Assembly (NCBI GenBank): GCA_003252375.1
Contig: QKEJ01000094.1
Location: 1-53,992, forward strand
Reading direction: 5' to 3'
DNA: 53,992 nucleotides
DNA from: Halodesulfovibrio sp.
GTDB lineage: Bacteria > Desulfobacterota > Desulfovibrionia > Desulfovibrionales > Desulfovibrionaceae
A model generated the notes under the pieces. It saw only the letters and a program-made list of their open reading frames with translations, ran no database searches and was not told the origin of the DNA. How positions within the stretch are numbered: the stretch's first letter is position 1; each line of letters starts with the position of its first letter. A program made the position numbers and the translations under genes. Shown here piece by piece: positions 34,778 to 43,381 of this stretch.

Positions 34778-35227
34778 TCAGGTACGCGGGGGAACGGAAT
34801 CCGGCTGGTTCTTGGGGCAGAGCGACGTGTCCCGGATGAGGTCTGCAAGGGTGAAGGTATTCAGCTTGTTGTACATGGCCTTTGCGCCTTCGGCCCAGAT
34901 GGTGCGGGTGAGGCAGACGTGCATGCGCGGGCAGCAGTTCTGCCGTTCGTCGCAATCGTAGCAGGGGGCCGTGCGTTCAAGGGAGTGGGTCACGTCGCCG
35001 ATGGGAATGTCCGCCGGGTCCTTGGCCAGCACGTATCCGCCATGGGCGCCAAGCCGGCTTTTGATGTAGCCATCCTTCTTGAGAACCCGCATGAGCTTTT
35101 CGAGGTACTTGAGGGATATCTCCTGACGCAGGGCGATATCCTTGATGGATACCGGGCCGTCCTCCTGGTTCATGGCGATATCGAGAAGCATGCGGGTGCC
35201 GTATCGGCTGCGTGTGGTCAACTTCAT
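34778..35227 (-). CDS. rrf2: Rrf2-family transcriptional regulator
   Basis: Founding-type member of the Rrf2 family, 149 residues. A winged-helix domain occupies residues 1-75 (MKLTTRSRYGTRMLLDIA, then SIKDIALRQEISLKYLEKLM and LGAHGGYVL). It has Cys residues 89, 92, 98, 99 and 105, of which 92, 98/99 and 105 fit the iron-sulfur ligand region of the family. In Desulfovibrio vulgaris, rrf1 and rrf2 lie downstream of the hmc genes and influence hmc expression (known). It is separated from rrf1 by a very strong hairpin. Confidence 0.94.
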   Translation of the reverse strand: MKLTTRSRYGTRMLLDIAMNQEDGPVSIKDIALRQEISLKYLEKLMRVLKKDGYIKSRLGAHGGYVLAKDPADIPIGDVTHSLERTAPCYDCDERQNCCPRMHVCLTRTIWAEGAKAMYNKLNTFTLADLIRDTSLCPKNQPDSVPPRT

Positions 35228-35297: not shown

Positions 35298-35654
35298 TTA
35301 AGACGCTGTCGTGCTGCGGATGATCCCGATCAGCTTTTCCGGATCGAACGGCTTGTTCACCGTTGCCACCGCATTGGGTACGGCGTGGTGCAGGCCGGGC
35401 ATGCCGCTCAGCAGAATGAACGGTACCGCGGCAAGCCCCGGAAGGGCGACCAGCTCCTTGTAGAGCAGCGGGCCCGCCTCTCCCGGCATTTCCATGTCCA
35501 GCGTGATCAGATCAGGCGGCTGCGCCGCTGCAAAACGCAGGGCCTGGGCGCCGTCTGTCACGCCTTCCGTTTCGTACCCATGGGCAGTCAGGACATTGAC
35601 GAGGTATTCGACGATATTGGGGTCGTCGTCGATTACCATGATGCGTATGGCCAT
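35298..35654 (-). CDS. rrf1: Single-domain response regulator Rrf1
   Basis: A 118-residue receiver domain with no output domain. The acidic pocket is IDDDP (Asp9-Asp11), the phosphoacceptor is Asp53 in LITLDMEMP, and the conserved Lys is in VNKPFD. The start at 35654 is chosen because AGGAG lies 7 bases upstream; the frame opens earlier at 35693. The gene lies between hmcF and rrf2, the same order as in D. vulgaris. No histidine kinase gene is in the window. Confidence 0.93.
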   Translation of the reverse strand: MAIRIMVIDDDPNIVEYLVNVLTAHGYETEGVTDGAQALRFAAAQPPDLITLDMEMPGEAGPLLYKELVALPGLAAVPFILLSGMPGLHHAVPNAVATVNKPFDPEKLIGIIRSTTAS

Positions 35655-35700
35655 GACCGACTCCTGGATGGGCTGGAGGGTTTCGAAGAACATCGCCTCC

Positions 35701-35749: not shown

Positions 35750-37141
35750 CTATTCGTCGTCGTCCTGCGGCTTCAGGTGGTCGGGGATGATCGCCATCTT
35801 CATGACCAGCGGCTTCAGGAAGGACCAGCGGATGCCGATCTCGTACTCTTCCTCAAGGTCGCGGATGGCGTCCCAGCAGTTATGGCAGGGGGCAATGACC
35901 AGCTTGCACCCGGTGGCCAGGATCTGGTCACGCTTGGTCTTCAGCGCCTCGTTACGCTGGTGGCGGTACTTGCCGATGCCGTTGAAGCCGCCGCCACCGC
36001 CGCAGCAGTAGTTGTGCTCGCGGTTGGGGGCCATCTCGCGGAAATCCTCGGCAATGTAGCTCATGATTTCACGCGTGATGTTGGCAAGGCCGTGGTTACG
36101 CACATAGTTGCAGGAGTCCTGCAGCGTACAGGGCTCCTTGATCTTCTTGGCCGGGTCGATCTTGATCTTGCCGGTGCGCAGCGCTTCCGCCAGCCATTCC
36201 ACGTAGTGGATGTACGGCGCCGGGGGCAGGCCATCGGGGCGTCCGGCCCAGTAAGGGCCTTCAATGACCGTGGCGCGGTGCGCGTGACCGCATTCGGTGC
36301 CCACGACCCGCTTGGGGCGCAGGCGTTCGATGGCGGCGTACACGGTTTCCACCTGCTGCTTGCAGGCAGCCCAGTCGCCGGCAAACATGGCCAGGGAGGT
36401 CTGTTCCCAGCCCTGGCTGGGCACGGTCCAGTTCTCACCGGCAAGGTGGAAGAGGATGGCGGCTTCGGCAAGGTCTTCCGGGTAGTGCTTGGGTTCGCGG
36501 GCATTCAGGGTATACATGATGTCCGCATCTTCCTTGTCCACCGGGATTTCCAGGCCGGGCCATTCCTCGCCGTACTCGTCGGCCATCCACTCGCAGGTAT
36601 CCACCCAGTCTTCTTCGGTCACGTCCATCTGCGCGTTGTACACGCGGTGCATGCCGGAACCGATCTTCATTTCCCACGGCACGAAGCCCTGGGAGTAGAG
36701 CAGGCCGCGCAGGTAGCTGAACATGACGCCCATGTCGATGCCATGGGGGCAGTACATGCCGCAGCGGTTGCAGCAGGTGCACTGCGACCAGGCGACGTCC
36801 ACGCAGTGACGCATGAACTCGTTGGTCACGTTGCCCTTCTTCTTGACGATTTCGCCAAGGGTGGACTGGATCTTGTAAGCGGGCACCTGCTTGGGATCGC
36901 GGTCGGAGACGCGATACAGGAAGCAGGAATCGGCGCACATGCCGCAGTGGGCGCAGATCTCGAGCCAGGTGCGGGTACGCGATTTACAGGTTTTTTCCAG
37001 CGTGGCGGCCAGCGCGGGCACGTCCACGTCCAGATGCTTCATTTCTTCGTAGTATTGTGCACCGCCCTTGTCACCGAGAAGGGCCTTGAGGTCTTCCTCG
37101 GTGTTCACGGGCTGCTTGTTGCAAAAGGTACCTTCAGGCAT
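35750..37141 (-). CDS. hmcF: HmcF, cytoplasmic iron-sulfur subunit of the Hmc complex
   Basis: The cytoplasmic catalytic-type subunit, 463 residues. Two Cys clusters at about residues 62-74 ([11 protein letters not shown]) and 122-133 ([12 protein letters not shown]) should bind 4Fe-4S centres. The C-terminal half has CCG-type motifs as in heterodisulfide reductase ([10 protein letters not shown] near residue 379 and APCHNCWD near 424). It receives or donates electrons through HmcC/HmcE at the inner face of the membrane. It lies 23 bases after hmcE. Confidence 0.95.
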
Positions 37142-37164: not shown

Positions 37165-37845
37165 TTACCAGGGGAAAGCGAAGGTCCGCTTCATGCCGCC
37201 GCGCTTGATGCTGTAGTCCATGCCCAGCTGACCGCGGGACATGAAGAAGAGCACGATGTGCGAGAGCTTGGTGAAGGGCGCAATGATGAGCAGCAGCTCG
37301 CCGGTAAGGATGTGGGCAGTGATCCAGAAATCATAGTTGCCCCAGTGCATACGGGCGATAAGGCCGCTCACGAACGGCGCCACGGAAACAGCCAGAATGA
37401 ACCAGTCGTAGACGGTGGTGAGGATGCGCACCTCGGTCAGGGCGATGCGGCGCAGGGCCAGCATCACGCCGCCGATGATGGCGAGCACGGTCAGCACGTC
37501 CGCCACGATGGAAGGCATGGCGGGCAGACCGAAGCCCAGCGCCTGCTTCAGAAGGACCTGATGGCCCAGCAGGAACAGGGGAACCAGCACGCCGCCGATG
37601 TGGAACAGGAAGAAGGCGGCAGCCATGAAGGGCTGCGCACGCCAGCTGTATGTTCCACCGGGGATGAGCCAGCGGCGGATGGAGTGCAGGGCACCCTTCA
37701 TGCCGAGGGCGAGGTGGGGCTTGTAGGCAACCCGTTCGAGCTGCCAGTTGAGGCCCCTTACGTACATGACGGCACGAAACGCGAGTCCCACGAAGAATAT
37801 CGCAAGGGATATCAGCATCATCGGTCCGGTAAGGAATCCAATCAT
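37165..37845 (-). CDS. hmcE: HmcE, membrane subunit (cytochrome b-like) of the Hmc complex
   Basis: An integral membrane protein of 226 residues with about five hydrophobic helices, including PMMLISLAIFFVGLAFRAVM at the N-terminus. It resembles NarI/HdrE-type haem b subunits and several His residues lie in or near helices (for example AHILTGELLLII), so haem binding is possible. A GGAG site precedes the ATG at 37845. It probably links quinone or haem electron flow to HmcF. Confidence 0.92.
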   Translation of the reverse strand: MIGFLTGPMMLISLAIFFVGLAFRAVMYVRGLNWQLERVAYKPHLALGMKGALHSIRRWLIPGGTYSWRAQPFMAAAFFLFHIGGVLVPLFLLGHQVLLKQALGFGLPAMPSIVADVLTVLAIIGGVMLALRRIALTEVRILTTVYDWFILAVSVAPFVSGLIARMHWGNYDFWITAHILTGELLLIIAPFTKLSHIVLFFMSRGQLGMDYSIKRGGMKRTFAFPW

Positions 37846-38046: not shown

Positions 38047-39207
38047 CTAGTGGGCGTCCTTGTACTCAGGATGCTCGTAGAGAACGGGCATCTTGGTAGC
38101 AATGAACCGGTAGGTGGTGATGATGACCGTGACAATGAAGATGGAGATGCCCACTTCCATCCAGTTGGGGAAGTAGCGTTCGGCAGCCGGAAGCTGCCAG
38201 TTGAAGGCAATCATGCTTACATTGAAGCGGTTGATCACGATGCCGAGAACCCCGAACACGGAGGCGATGCGAACGATCTTCATGTTCCTTTCCCGTACGC
38301 CCAGGGCGTAGAGGAAGGAGGGCAGCAGGACAAAGCCGAAGATTTCGACCAGGAACCAGGCACCGTAGCCGGTGGCAAGGTACTGCCAGTCGTCATCCAT
38401 GGTGATGTCGAACAGTTTGATGAAGAAGTAGCCCATCAGGATGAAGGAGGCAGCCTTGGCCATGCCGAAGGCCACGCCTTCTGCTTCCTTCAGATGGGTT
38501 TCGTCCATCTTGTGGTGCAGCCCCTTGTGCGCCAGTGTGCCTTCAAAGATCACCATGGAGGAACCGGCCACCATGGAGGAGATGAAGAAGAACACGGGCA
38601 GGAAGCTGGAGTACCACAGGGGATGCAGCTTGCCGGGAGCGATGACGAACAGCGCGCCGAGCGAGCTCTGGTGCATGGTGGAAAGGACAACGCCGAGAAT
38701 GGTCAGCGGCAGGGTCAGCTTGATCACGAAGTTGCGGATCTTGCGGAAGCCCAGCCACTCCAGCGCGGCAGGAGACCATTCGATGAACAGGACGGACACG
38801 TACGTGGCAACGCACAGGCCCACTTCGAAGAGCAGGGACGTGGTGCCCTGCGAGAGTACCAGGGGGTAGGGCAGGCGCCACGGGTGACCAAGGTCGTACA
38901 GCAGGGCCACGACAACGAAGAAGTAGCCGAGGAACGCCGTGGTGATGGCGGGACGCACTGCCGAATGGTAGTGCTTGAGGCCGAAGAGGTAGCAGGATGC
39001 GGACGTCACGTAGCCGCCGGCAGCAAGTGCCACGCCGCACATGAGGTCGAATCCGATCCAGAGGCCCCAGGGGTTGTTGTCATCAAGGTTGGTGACAGCC
39101 CCGATGCCCTTGTAGAAGCGCAGGAATGTCAACACCAGGCCGCCGGCAAGAATGAAGGCGGTGAGGACATTGCCCGGCGTCCAGAATGATTTCTGGTTAT
39201 CGTTCAT
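38047..39207 (-). CDS. hmcC: HmcC, NrfD-like membrane subunit of the Hmc complex
   Basis: A polytopic membrane protein of 386 residues, with about ten hydrophobic segments, of the NrfD/PsrC family. Motifs include NPWGLWIGFDLMCGVALAAG at about 45-64 and ALEWLGFRKIRNFV. These subunits interact with quinone or move electrons between periplasmic and cytoplasmic partners without haem. Its ATG shares the A of the hmcB stop (TAATG), so the two are translationally coupled. Confidence 0.95.
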   Translation of the reverse strand: MNDNQKSFWTPGNVLTAFILAGGLVLTFLRFYKGIGAVTNLDDNNPWGLWIGFDLMCGVALAAGGYVTSASCYLFGLKHYHSAVRPAITTAFLGYFFVVVALLYDLGHPWRLPYPLVLSQGTTSLLFEVGLCVATYVSVLFIEWSPAALEWLGFRKIRNFVIKLTLPLTILGVVLSTMHQSSLGALFVIAPGKLHPLWYSSFLPVFFFISSMVAGSSMVIFEGTLAHKGLHHKMDETHLKEAEGVAFGMAKAASFILMGYFFIKLFDITMDDDWQYLATGYGAWFLVEIFGFVLLPSFLYALGVRERNMKIVRIASVFGVLGIVINRFNVSMIAFNWQLPAAERYFPNWMEVGISIFIVTVIITTYRFIATKMPVLYEHPEYKDAH

Positions 39208-40313
39208 TATGCTTCCTCCTCCGGCGTTTCACCGGCATCGGCTTCGTCTGCGGGGGCCTGGGCGGCGGCGAGCTTTTCTTCAAAAGCCTTTTCCGCTTCG
39301 GCAACAGCCTTCTTGACCTCGCGGTCAACGGCTGCGGCCTTTTCCTTGTCCGCCTTTTCCATGGCGGCCTTGAGCGCGCCATCGGCCTCGGCCTTGGTTG
39401 CGTTCACGGCGTCCTTGACGGCTTCGGCACGTTCTTCGGCGGCGATCTTTTCCTTACGCTTGCTGATGCCGTAGGCACCGGCGAGCAGGACGGGCCAGAT
39501 GCCCACAACCATGGGAACCGCACCCAGTGCACCGGAGGTGAGCTCGGGAGCGGAGGTCTTGCCGACAACGGGCATGCCCAGTTCGGCGTGAGGAACGGGA
39601 GACAGGTACAGCCAGCTGGTGCCGCCTGCTTCGGTCTCGCCGTAGATGTGCTTTTCGTACCGGTCGGGGTACTTGCGGATGCGCTCGCGGGCAATGGCGA
39701 GCAGATCCTCGCGCTTGCCGAAGGTGAGGGCTTCCTTGGGACAGATCTCCACGCAGCCGGGCAGCTTGCCTTCCTGGATGCGGGGATGACACATGGTGCA
39801 CTTCTGTACCAGCGGATCGAGCGGATCGTCGTATTCGAACGCCGGAACGCTGAACGGACAGGCCACCATGCAGTAGCGGCAGCCTACGCAGAGGTCGCCG
39901 TTGTAGGTGACGGAACCGTCAGGATTCTTGGTGAACGCCTTGACGAAGCAGGCGGACGCGCAAGCGGGTTCCTGACAGTGGTTGCACTGCTGCTTGCGGA
40001 AGACCGGGTGTTCCAGACCGGCGGTGTTGTACTTGTTCACCACGGTGTAGGTCTTGGCATCCGTTCTGCGCTTGGTGTCCAGCACGGTCAGATCGTCGAA
40101 CGCGGCGGACGGCTTGGGAAGGTTGTTGACTTCGTTACACGCCTGCTCACATTTGCGGCAGCCGATGCAGCGCGTGCTGTCATGCAGCACGCCCATGGCG
40201 TCGGGGTAGCCCTTGAATGTGTGGGTGCCGCCACCGGCCTTTGCCTTGGTCGCTCCCATGGCAGAAGCAAGACCGGCACCACCCAACAGGCTCAGGAATT
40301 TTCTGCGATGCAT
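39207..40313 (-). CDS. hmcB: HmcB, periplasmic ferredoxin-like subunit of the Hmc complex
   Basis: A 368-residue iron-sulfur protein. A twin-Arg-type signal ([19 protein letters not shown]) precedes four Cys clusters: [11 protein letters not shown] (about 48-58), [24 protein letters not shown] with PFSV, and CTMCHPRI with CVEICP, fitting four 4Fe-4S centres. A hydrophobic helix near residues 265-285 may anchor it. The last 80 residues are an Ala/Lys/Glu-rich coiled-coil-like tail. It passes electrons between HmcA and HmcC. Confidence 0.95.
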
Positions 40314-40331: not shown

Positions 40332-41939
40332 CTAGTTCTCGCGCACGGCATGACACTCGGTGCACGCCGTGGCCTTGGGCTTCTCAAGCTTCATGGCTGC
40401 GTGGCAGCCCATGCACTGCTGATGGTAGGCTGCCTTGAGACCGGGGCGATCGCCCTTGGCGGTTTCAAACGGCTTGCCATGGCAGCTCTGGCACTTGGGA
40501 GGCGTCTTGCTGACGGGGCTGTTATGGTGGCAGCCCTGGCAGAAGGTGCCGGGAACGGTATGGAAGGTCGCAGCCATCTTGCTGCCGGCAACCGAGGCGA
40601 TCATGGTCTTCACGATCTTGCGGTGGGGCATCTTGGAGGCGGCGTACTTGTCCGAAATGGCTCCGATTTCAACGATCTCGGGGATATCCTCTTCGGCGTA
40701 CACGACCATCTTGGCAGGGCGGGCGGCAACCAGTGCGGCTGCTGCTGCCTGCTTCTGTTCCTTGCTCATGGCAGCCAGCTCGTCGCCCTTGGGGGCGCCG
40801 GTGGCGTGACATGCGGCACAGGACTGCTCGGAAGCGGCGTTGCTGGGCATGGCGCCGTGGCACCCGGCACAGGAGACGTCCGTCTTGGCTTCGTTATGAC
40901 AGCCGATACAGGACGCCTGGGCCTTGACGGCGTGCATGGCCTGCTCGAGCTGGACGAAGTTGCCTTCCTTCTTGCCTGCCACGGTGTGACAGTCGGTACA
41001 GGCGGCGATCTTGGCGTGGTGGCAGCTGCGACAGTTGTCGAGCGCGCCTTCATGCGCCAGGTGGTTGAAGGCGACTGCAGGCAGCTTGGCCTTCTTCAGG
41101 TCGTCGGCAGCAATGAGGGCGGCGTCGGGCTGGCCGCGCTTGAGGCGGGGCACGTCCTTGACGACCTTGTACTGCTTCTGGGCCTCGGCGGTGTGGCAGC
41201 CCGCACAGGTGACGGGGCCGGTGTCGCCGGTGGTCTTCACGTGACAGGTCACACAGGCGGCGTGGGCGGCGTCATTGAGGGCGGGCTTCATGTCCGCGCT
41301 GCCCTCGGCAACCGGGGTGGGCGTTTCCTTGTGGCAGGCACGGCAGGAATCTTCCTCTCCCTTCTTCCACGCAGCCTTCTTGGAGGCGGCATCATAAATA
41401 TGGTGACATGCGCCGCAGTTCACATCCTGTCCGGCGACCTTGATGGTCTTGGCAGCGATGTGGCGGTAGTGCAGGGACTTGTCCATGCCTACTGCTTTCC
41501 ATGCGGAGGTGTCGGCCGGGTTGGGGTTGTGGCAGGCGCGACATTCGCCTTCCTGCGGCCCCGTGTTGTTGCCGGCGGCAGCCTGTTCGGCATGGCAGGC
41601 AAAACAGTTGGAGTGATACAGTTCCTTCAGTTCTTCCGCGCTACCGTCCTCGGTGCGCATGAACTTCAGGGACATGGTGCCATCCTGCGTTTTGTGACAG
41701 GCGGAGCAATCCTTGTTCAGCTTCTTCATTGCTTCCGTGTGCAGGTCATGGCGATAGGTAACAGCCGGCAACTCGGTGTTCCCCATTTTACCGATCACAT
41801 CGATGGTGACGACGTCAGCATAGCTCGCGGCTGAGGCTTCCTCAGTTTTGGAGCTCTGCGCCTCGTGTCCCCAGACCGAGACGAGAGCCACCGCAACCAG
41901 CAGTCCCGCCCATCGCAGCAGTGATCTTCCTTTCATCAT
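40332..41939 (-). CDS. hmcA: HmcA, 16-haem high-molecular-weight cytochrome c
   Basis: The periplasmic cytochrome of the Hmc complex, 535 residues. A Sec signal peptide (LLRWAGLLVAVALVSVWG) is followed by sixteen CXXCH haem c motifs by my count (the first CSACH near residue 78, the last CTECH near 528). It takes electrons from the periplasmic cytochrome c3/hydrogenase pool and passes them to HmcB. Two ATGs in a row begin the frame, with AAGGA upstream. It is the first gene of hmcABCDEF-rrf1-rrf2. Confidence 0.97.
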   Translation of the reverse strand: MMKGRSLLRWAGLLVAVALVSVWGHEAQSSKTEEASAASYADVVTIDVIGKMGNTELPAVTYRHDLHTEAMKKLNKDCSACHKTQDGTMSLKFMRTEDGSAEELKELYHSNCFACHAEQAAAGNNTGPQEGECRACHNPNPADTSAWKAVGMDKSLHYRHIAAKTIKVAGQDVNCGACHHIYDAASKKAAWKKGEEDSCRACHKETPTPVAEGSADMKPALNDAAHAACVTCHVKTTGDTGPVTCAGCHTAEAQKQYKVVKDVPRLKRGQPDAALIAADDLKKAKLPAVAFNHLAHEGALDNCRSCHHAKIAACTDCHTVAGKKEGNFVQLEQAMHAVKAQASCIGCHNEAKTDVSCAGCHGAMPSNAASEQSCAACHATGAPKGDELAAMSKEQKQAAAAALVAARPAKMVVYAEEDIPEIVEIGAISDKYAASKMPHRKIVKTMIASVAGSKMAATFHTVPGTFCQGCHHNSPVSKTPPKCQSCHGKPFETAKGDRPGLKAAYHQQCMGCHAAMKLEKPKATACTECHAVREN

Positions 41940-42022
41940 AGTGGCAGTCCTTTCGATGAAATTACAAACACGTCCTTCAGACTTCCCTCAGCCGATGGCC
42001 CGTCGCTCCGGTTCCCTGCGGA

Positions 42023-42050
42023 GCGGCAGGACAGGTAACAATCCTGCCGC
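42023..42050 (-). other. 9-bp hairpin in the hmcA leader
   Basis: GCGGCAGGA and TCCTGCCGC pair perfectly around a 10-base loop, about 85 bases before the hmcA start. No T-run follows, so it is more likely a stabilising or regulatory stem than a terminator. Confidence 0.6.
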
Positions 42051-42160
42051 AAGCACAAAAAGGCAGCATGTGGCAACACGCTGTTTTCATTGTGCTTAAT
42101 ACGGCCAGTTTTCGAATGACCCCGAACACACACAGGGGTGGTGTCCGTGGCAAGAACCCA

Positions 42161-42175
42161 TACCGTGTATCGGTA
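42161..42175. promoter_or_regulatory. Operator-like inverted repeat 1 upstream of hmcA
   Basis: TACC-N7-GGTA. It is the least perfect of three related repeats; its centre is 20 bases from that of repeat 2. Confidence 0.5.
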
Positions 42176-42179
42176 AAAA

Positions 42180-42196
42180 CCTACCATGTTGGTATG
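42180..42196. promoter_or_regulatory. Operator-like inverted repeat 2 upstream of hmcA
   Basis: CCTACC-ATGTT-GGTATG, matching the perfect repeat 3 in 5 of 6 bases of the second arm. Its centre is 25 bases from that of repeat 3. Confidence 0.6.
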
Positions 42197-42204
42197 AGTT
42201 AAAT

Positions 42205-42221
42205 CCTACCACTCAGGTAGG
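42205..42221. promoter_or_regulatory. Operator-like inverted repeat 3 upstream of hmcA (perfect)
   Basis: CCTACC-ACTCA-GGTAGG, a perfect 6-5-6 inverted repeat. It covers the expected -10 position for the TTGACG at 42237-42242. A dimeric regulator is likely to bind; Rrf2 is the obvious local candidate. Confidence 0.65.
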
Positions 42222-42412
42222 CGAATTGCCTATGGGCGTCAAGGACATTTTATATTTTAGGAGACAAAAAAATCGGCCATAATTGACTGATTTCATTGCA
42301 GAGATGGTTGTGCGGGTGCTCAACTTGCGACGGGCTGCCACCCCGGAGACAAGGCCTGAGGCGGGTTATGTACAACTCCGGTAGGAAATGATGCCGGATA
42401 CGGAGGGGGGAA

Positions 42413-43381
42413 TTACGGTCGCTCTGCGAGCGGGGCCGTGCGGAGGATGCCCTGGAGCACGTCGGCGGCGAGGTCGATGCCGGTCAGTTCACGGATGGTG
42501 CGGATGCCGCCGGGGCTGAGCACGTTGCATTCAAGAACGTACGGATAGACCAGGTCCACGCCTGCAAAGGAGACGCCCCGCGCCCGCAGCCATAGGCCGA
42601 GACGGTTGCAGAGCGCCGTCTCATCGGGTGTCAGTGTGCATGGCTCGCTGGAGGCTCCCTGGGCCAGATTGGTGCGATGGTCCTGCGCGGAGCGGCGCAG
42701 GTACTGGCCCACGACCGTTCCTCCTGCAATGAGGACGCGTTTCTCGCCCTGCGCAATTTCCGGCACATGGCGCTGCAGCAGGCAGTAGCGGCTGTTGTCG
42801 TTGCCGGTCATGGACTGCAGGATGGCCCGGGCATTGGTGTCCGTGGCGGAGATGAGGAAGACGTTGCGCCCGAAGGCTTCGGCCGGAGGCTTGACGATCC
42901 ATTGTCCGCCGGAAGCGCGCACGATACTCCATAGATACTCGGCATCCGAGGAGGCGTGGGTTTCCGGATGCCGGAAGACGTCGTCCATGCCGGCCATGCG
43001 ATACTTGCTGTTCAGATGCATGAGGGCATCCACCGAGTTGGCCACCACGGTGTGTTTCTCGGCCATGCGAAGCAGCTGCACCCTGTCGAGAAAGCCGTTC
43101 CGGCGGCCGAAGCTGAGCACCTGCACGTGGTCGAAGTCGGCCAGCGGCATGGTGTGCACATCCGTATCGAGCTTCAGACCCGGCAACGCGTCTTCTGCGG
43201 AGGGGGCGGTCACAACGGGGAGGGTGTTGCAGACCACCTGTCCCGTCCTGAGGCTCAGGGTGTCCATGAGCCCGAAGTGCACACGCAGGCCCAGTTGCAG
43301 GGCGGCGCGTGCCAGTTCCGTCCCGTTTTCCGGGTCTTCGTGCGGGTCGCGGACAAGGAGGCAGAGGGTGGCTGTGGTCAT
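42413..43381 (-). CDS. ATP-grasp protein, glutathione synthetase-like
   Basis: A 322-residue protein resembling GshB-type ATP-grasp ligases. Visible motifs include NSVDALMHLNSKYRM (about 115-129), QWIVKPPAEAFGRNVFLI (about 160-177), the late R-x-N-x-AQGA segment (DHRTNLAQGAS, about 236-246) and the metal-binding VLECNVLSPGG near residue 289. ATP-grasp enzymes join a carboxylate to an amine or thiol. Whether this makes glutathione or another peptide cannot be told, since no gshA-like gene is close. Confidence 0.8.
   Translation of the reverse strand: MTTATLCLLVRDPHEDPENGTELARAALQLGLRVHFGLMDTLSLRTGQVVCNTLPVVTAPSAEDALPGLKLDTDVHTMPLADFDHVQVLSFGRRNGFLDRVQLLRMAEKHTVVANSVDALMHLNSKYRMAGMDDVFRHPETHASSDAEYLWSIVRASGGQWIVKPPAEAFGRNVFLISATDTNARAILQSMTGNDNSRYCLLQRHVPEIAQGEKRVLIAGGTVVGQYLRRSAQDHRTNLAQGASSEPCTLTPDETALCNRLGLWLRARGVSFAGVDLVYPYVLECNVLSPGGIRTIRELTGIDLAADVLQGILRTAPLAERP

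Follow-up and report, generated by a model that had tools for sequence, protein, structure and literature searches.

A conserved pair of palindromes at the predicted hmc promoter as a candidate operator for the operon-encoded Rrf2 regulator

The window, i.e. the whole 53,992-nucleotide stretch of DNA analyzed here, carries an hmc operon on its minus strand that begins with the hexadecaheme cytochrome gene hmcA and has rrf2 as its last gene (Table 1). The names hmcB, hmcC, hmcE, and hmcF are those we take to follow from operon order, and the name rrf1 is likewise presumed. Upstream of hmcA is a 473-bp gap (41940–42412), beyond which lies a gene in the same direction (42413–43381, minus strand) encoding a glutathione-synthetase-like ATP-grasp protein that scores below the equivalog cut-off.

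Table 1. Genes, repeats, and predicted promoter features of the hmc region, in window positions
Feature	Position	Strand	Sequence	Remarks
rrf2, Rrf2-family regulator, candidate operator binder	34778..35227	-		PF02082, E 7.6e-40
rrf1 (name presumed)	35298..35693	-		stand-alone response-regulator receiver domain
hmcF	35750..37141	-		name presumed from operon order
hmcE	37165..37845	-		name presumed from operon order
hmcC	38047..39207	-		name presumed from operon order
hmcB	39207..40313	-		name presumed from operon order
hmcA, hexadecaheme cytochrome	40332..41939	-		NCBIfam equivalog NF045713, 690.3 bits vs cut-off 400
predicted untranslated leader, ~268 nt	41940..42207	-		start inferred from -10
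third, weaker repeat	42161..42175		TACC-N7-GGTA	kept in 3/7 aligned genus relatives
candidate operator site 2	42180..42196		CCTACCATGTTGGTATG	CATACC-N5-GGTAGG on - strand; center 25 bp downstream of site 1
candidate operator site 1, perfect 17-bp palindrome	42205..42221		CCTACCACTCAGGTAGG	CCTACC-N5-GGTAGG; overlaps predicted -10
predicted -10	42214..42219	-	TACCTG	17 nt from -35; inside site 1; poor match to TATAAT
predicted -35	42237..42242	-	TTGACG	invariant in 8 aligned genus sequences

A sequence-only reading of this DNA had described three related inverted repeats, 20 and 25 bp apart, in the gap before hmcA, and we find them there, centered at 42168, 42188, and 42213. Sites 1 and 2 are perfect copies of the 17-bp palindrome CMTACC-N5-GGTAKG, and the third repeat has a spacer of 7 bases as against 5 in the other two. 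When the 473-bp gap was shuffled 5000 times with its dinucleotides preserved, no shuffle contained two perfect sites, 1 contained at least one, and 23 contained an exact TACC-N7-GGTA, the third repeat alone. The tandem pair is unique in the source genome assembly (3.44 Mb, 86.5% complete; the window is its contig C196), even with up to three mismatches allowed, and the reversed control pair has no occurrence. It is the perfect pair alone that stands out from chance. Perfect single sites number three in this genome (two at hmc, one on contig C144), the same as for the reversed control (three), and loose matches do not rise above chance: the window holds 20 with up to three mismatches, a number reached by 47 of 100 shuffles, and the genome holds 178 with up to two mismatches versus 474 for the reversed pattern. 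A motif-blind test, scoring an exact 5-bp arm and loop length that occur twice, failed to single out the array because sites 1 and 2 are unlike each other at a single arm base. A plasmid search with the promoter region gave no match.

The most perfect repeat had been suggested to cover a possible −10 element, and the geometry TTGACG-N17-TACCTG indeed places site 1 on the predicted −10, although an automatic sigma-70 scan called no promoter at that position (minus strand, 42242–42214). Judged from the position of the predicted −10, hmc transcription would start near 42207, with site 2, 25 bp further, in the predicted leader and the third repeat 20 bp later. The final ~55 nt of the leader (41940–42000, minus strand) are nearly invariant across the eight aligned sequences of the genus. 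Also within the predicted leader, a hairpin followed by a T-rich tail resembles a terminator (42083–42064, minus strand); 0.5 such hairpins are expected by chance.

Conservation was assessed on 108 assembled hmcA regions (69 genome loci, 38 named records, and the window), 89 of which were scored. The 69 loci were hand-chosen out of 216 genomes with an hmcA match, among 288 genomes searched, and 30 hmcA loci had already been viewed beforehand. The 19 unscored regions are L061 and L062, taken as the same as L102 and L104, and L069, L081–L084, L086, and L088–L098, which have a partial hmcA, are duplicates, or have a short flank; genus g18 was left out whole, its listed matches spanning only the second half of HmcA. 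Each region was scored with a profile built from the other genera, its own being withheld, and compared with 300 shuffles, non-ACGT letters being treated as A, and a pair was called at p ≤ 0.01. Genus labels of the loci from the 38 records, and labels of rrf2 as near or not near, were assigned by hand.

A like pair with 24–26 bp spacing is present in 46 of the 89 scored upstream regions, its centers lying 25 bp apart in 30 loci, 26 in 15, and 24 in 1, so that the conservation anticipated for the repeats in related genomes is borne out for two of them. The pair occurs in all eight regions of the window's own genus, in 6/6 of g12, 9/9 of g33, and 12/15 of g37, in both regions each of g4, g13, g19, and the Desulfomicrobium-like L074/L078, and in the single regions of g15, g35, and g36. 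By profile scoring it is absent from g39 (0/6), g24 (0/8), g21 (0/4), and g2 (0/2), from single regions of g7, g25, g28, g32, g34, and g41, and from all 14 other named records, mostly titled Desulfobacteraceae, Desulfobacterales, or Deltaproteobacteria. The third repeat is retained in the three nearest aligned relatives (L099–L101), with constant half-sites and a variable spacer, and absent in four other aligned relatives of the genus. The proposed three-repeat array stands as a widely kept two-site pair, with its N7 member restricted to the nearest relatives aligned: the candidate operator unit is the pair at 24–26 bp spacing, and the third repeat is a local addition.

The position of the pair relative to a −35-like TTGAC is also constrained. 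In 44 of the 46 pair-bearing loci a distance of 17 or 18 nt separates TTGAC from the TACC position of a site that follows it, namely site 1 in 37 loci and site 2 in 7. In these seven the pair lies one repeat further upstream, on the −35 and −10, with TTGAC inside site 1. L132 and L140 have the pair, with TTGAC at this distance before neither site. In genus g24, which has no pair, TTGAC-N17-TA is kept in 8/8 loci examined.

Presence of the pair follows presence of an rrf2 gene near hmcA, defined as a gene within 12 kb by tblastn and genome searches and found in 55 of 76 decidable loci. The pair is present in 44 of these 55 loci versus 1 of the 21 without rrf2 (Fisher 1.3e-9), and within the window's family in 42 of 53 versus 1 of 15. 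These locus-level counts come from genomes that share ancestry, and the genus-level test, with one vote per genus and state, is weaker (11/15 with rrf2 versus 1/9 without, p = 0.009). Thirteen loci, including the pair-bearing L125, are undecidable for rrf2 where the contig or stretch ends too soon, and L066, L076, and L167, with short flanks, were not counted as rrf2-less. Six g39 genomes, G219, and G220 encode Rrf2 proteins elsewhere and none near hmc, and lack the pair. The regulator gene is not always in the same place: it lies ~7.7 to 9 kb downstream in g33, g35, and part of g37, and ~0.5 kb upstream of hmcA in G029 (g13), g15, and g19, where the pair is on the −35 and −10.

Eleven loci have rrf2 near and no pair, i.e. 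all eight of g24 and those of G001, G166, and G170. In G028 the pair is present and rrf2 is missing from the neighborhood of hmcA. Genus g24 is the main exception to the link. Its loci (L130, L131, L133, L137, L138, L139, L141, and L145) carry another 17-bp dyad, GGGAA-N7-TTCCC, just after the −10, exact in four (L130, L131, L138, and L145) and altered in the other four; this dyad may be a diverged operator.

The protein encoded at the end of the operon had been read as an Rrf2 regulator with Fe-S-type cysteines, and both parts of that description are upheld. Residues 3–133 match PF02082 with 136.6 bits against a cut-off of 30, and the protein contains the Lx3Gx6Gx2GGx2L motif as L49-KKD-G53-YIKSRL-G60-AH-GG-YV-L67, a motif assigned to helix 3 and the wing of the Rrf2 family in PMC9338935. 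Among solved structures its best matches are 4cic, which carries the name BadM/Rrf2 family (E 1.9e-26), and 4hf1, which is E. coli IscR (7.4e-22). It falls under the cut-off of the IscR equivalog TIGR02010 (110.2 versus 207.55 bits), and under those of NCBIfam for NsrR (49.5/182), CymR (89/195), and RirA (59.9/193). Rrf1 was considered as an operator binder and rejected; Pfam gives it a receiver domain and no other.

The window Rrf2 aligns with E. coli IscR without gaps, placing Glu43 on Glu43. Glu43 and Lys40 are found in 46/46 Rrf2 rows from near hmcA (some of them identical) and in the 6/6 Rrf2s of g15/g19, and Lys44 in 45/46 rows. Residue 59, in the wing, is leucine in the window Rrf2 and arginine in 31 of the 46. 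The cysteine loop that precedes the long helix, C-DERQN-CC-PRMHV-C-LT (C-x5-CC-x5-C-LT), has the three or more cysteines counted here as the Fe-S type, and such a loop is present in 44 of the 46 rows; it is missing from the protein of G029 and from the nearer of the two copies in G031. In G031, G115, and G116 (L263, L264, and L265; g15/g19) two tandem rrf2 genes lie upstream of hmcA, the nearer product having one or two loop cysteines and the farther product four. G029 (L113) is the only case in which the pair is kept and the sole near-hmc Rrf2 is poor in cysteine, having two in the loop. Cluster-based sensing is thus likely for most near-hmc Rrf2s and may not extend to all of them.

The same 17-bp word also occurs elsewhere. 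Ten genomes contain 40 perfect single sites versus 9 for the reversed pattern; placed by hand, 19 of them belong to hmc, 5 precede a CoA-disulfide-reductase/rhodanese-like gene, 4 stand near Rrf2 paralogs (0.2 to 0.8 kb upstream), and 12 are at other positions. In the source genome the perfect single site on C144 (22829–22845; L171:3330–3346) lies ~190 bp before the gene for this flavoprotein, which scores below the CoA-disulfide reductase cut-offs (336 versus 578.8 bits) and has, reading by eye, what we take to be a rhodanese part. Of 12 relatives, nine have a flavoprotein promoter site that matches at 11 or more of the 12 positions and three have one that matches at 10, as scored with a relaxed pattern by which 10/12 is not rare.

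Three further contigs of the source genome have near-perfect sites upstream of Rrf2 paralogs: a single one, CCTACTACACAGGTAGG, ~165 bp upstream on C189 (L168), a single one ~87 bp upstream on C122 (L170), and three before two tandem paralogs on C79 (L169). Adjoining the C79 paralogs is a type III sulfide:quinone reductase, which scores 674 bits for NF049943 versus 525. The C189 paralog precedes sensor-kinase-like and response-regulator-like genes, their roles being read by eye. Among relatives, a site is present at 3 of 5 C189-like loci (L218, L219, and L231; not L221 or L222) and at 2 of 3 C122-like loci (L216 and L220; not L217). Across Rrf2 genes at large the sites are modestly enriched, occurring in 7/60 upstream versus 3/60 downstream stretches of ~500 bp each.

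Taken together, we consider it likely that the array is a conserved two-dimer hmc operator for autogenous repression by the operon's own Rrf2. Rrf2 had been named as the obvious candidate binder, and we judge that it probably does bind the pair, as suggested by co-occurrence (44/55 versus 1/21), by Glu43, by the 17-bp CC...GG geometry, and by the single sites before some paralogs. A homodimer from the operon's last gene would bind each palindrome through its winged helix-turn-helix, with Glu43 reading the outer CC/GG (±7, ±8) and Lys40 and Lys44 recognizing the G/T bases further in, and a neighboring dimer would raise affinity. Repression of hmc is probable. As in the arrangement of an autogenous repressor, the predicted promoter and the site overlap, and the operon includes the regulator gene or has it nearby; since site 1 covers the predicted −10 and start, with site 2 ~25 bp downstream of it, occupancy would exclude RNA polymerase. 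That Rrf2 senses redox via an Fe-S cluster we hold to be about evenly balanced; loss, oxidation, or modification of a cluster in the cysteine loop would change how Rrf2 binds DNA, and electron flow through Hmc would thereby be adjusted to the redox state of the cell.

In a less likely reading, which we offer tentatively, Rrf2 would respond to the redox state of persulfides or thiols as opposed to oxygen or iron, the movable operator then tying Hmc to a small sulfur-redox circuit. The operator would be movable in that it covers the −10 and leader in most genera and the −35 and −10 in others, and the same 17-bp word, singly, would control the flavoprotein and the Rrf2 paralogs beside the type III sulfide:quinone reductase. 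If so, the pair would be the DNA target of the type of Rrf2 that named the family.

The paralogs also bear on which protein is the main ligand. Single sites of the same kind stand before the C189, C79, and C122 paralogs and some of their counterparts in relatives, and all four own-genome paralogs aligned keep Glu43, as would be expected if another Rrf2-family protein (e.g. the C189 or C79 paralog) were the main ligand of the pair and the operon Rrf2 one of several competitors. However, the tandem pair follows the near-hmc rrf2, pair-less genomes also have paralogs elsewhere, and operon and non-operon proteins group apart in the Rrf2 tree, in which many forks are weak, making this an unlikely arrangement. 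We assign a similarly low likelihood to activation of hmc by Rrf2, or to action in both directions as for IscR at type 2 sites. The poor −10 (TACCTG), of a kind seen at promoters needing help, together with the missing sigma-70 call leaves room for an activator role, but the pair covers either the −10 and start (37 loci) or the −35 and −10 (7 loci), which are places typical of a repressor.

Kinship confounds the co-occurrence, and g24 breaks it, so a protein outside the Rrf2 family could bind the palindromes, with the rrf2 link reflecting shared ancestry. We find this slightly more doubtful still, given the contrast inside genus g37, where the pair accompanies rrf2 in 11/11 loci versus 0/2 without it, the sites before some Rrf2 paralogs, and the IscR-like 17-bp CC...GG spacing. 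A role for the repeats as hairpins in the mRNA leader would be allowed by the arms pairing in an alignment fold and by sites 2 and 3 lying beyond the predicted start, but it is highly improbable, as site 1 coincides with the predicted −10, other genes are preceded by the same palindrome, the pair is on the −35/−10 in seven loci, an Rfam search gave no match up to E = 10, and most operator arm pairs in the fold never vary and therefore yield no covariation; a few third-repeat pairs do vary on both sides.

With repression by Rrf2 as the preferred reading, what is added to rrf1 and rrf2, already cited as regulators of hmc, is a concrete candidate DNA target for this Rrf2. The operator is short, conserved, and nearly unique, and with the contact residues named a single protein and a single DNA fragment suffice to test the proposal; the operator may also allow hmc control to be predicted in further genomes. 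Operators displaced by one repeat, copies of Rrf2 that have lost cysteines, and a genus with a changed site form a natural series for the evolution of Rrf2 sites. A curated regulon database may presumably hold a predicted site for this regulator, under what we take to be the name HmcR. This name led to no relevant paper in the open-licence PMC literature, and no description of an hmc operator was recognized in the portions of that literature searched.

A close comparison at the level of DNA recognition is with E. coli IscR, whose type 2 consensus is CCxYAx7TRxGG. The outer bases of that consensus (CC/GG at ±7/±8 of the 17-bp dyad) are present in both halves of site 1 and one half of site 2, whereas in place of its inner YA-N7-TR bases the hmc sites have AC-C...G-GT. 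The window system resembles IscR and its type 2 site (hya) in the Rrf2 fold predicted from sequence, in Glu43 on the recognition helix, and in the outer CC/GG. In IscR, Glu43 contacts C7C8 and C7′C8′ of the type 2 site according to PMC5411485, and the C at −8 on both strands according to PMC9338935. The two differ in that the window regulator is encoded in hmc and not isc, and has Lys40 and Lys44 where IscR has Ser40 and Gln44, replacements that fit the changed inner operator bases. IscR Arg59 enters the minor groove, and the window Rrf2 has leucine there, which, like the differing inner bases, counts against the preferred reading.

NsrR, RirA, and CymR share the Rrf2 superfamily, and the window protein scores well under the cut-off of each. 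RisR of Myxococcus xanthus is, like the proposed window regulator, an Rrf2-family delta-proteobacterial repressor acting on an imperfect promoter palindrome, but, according to PMC9973013, its core is GAC-N7-GTC, its sites precede isc and suf, and it does not conserve Ser40, Glu43, and Gln44 of IscR.

A further known counterpart is the control of hmc by Rrf1 and Rrf2 in D. vulgaris Hildenborough, where hmc expression reportedly rose after deletion of rrf1 and rrf2. This control is attributed to Keon et al. (1997), which is cited by both PMC10924467 and PMC9338935. PMC10924467 names rrf1/rrf2 as regulators of hmc expression, and PMC9338935 gives D. vulgaris Hildenborough as the organism in which the Rrf2 family, including IscR, NsrR, and RirA, was first described. 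The window belongs to another organism and has the same operon and the same pair of regulators.
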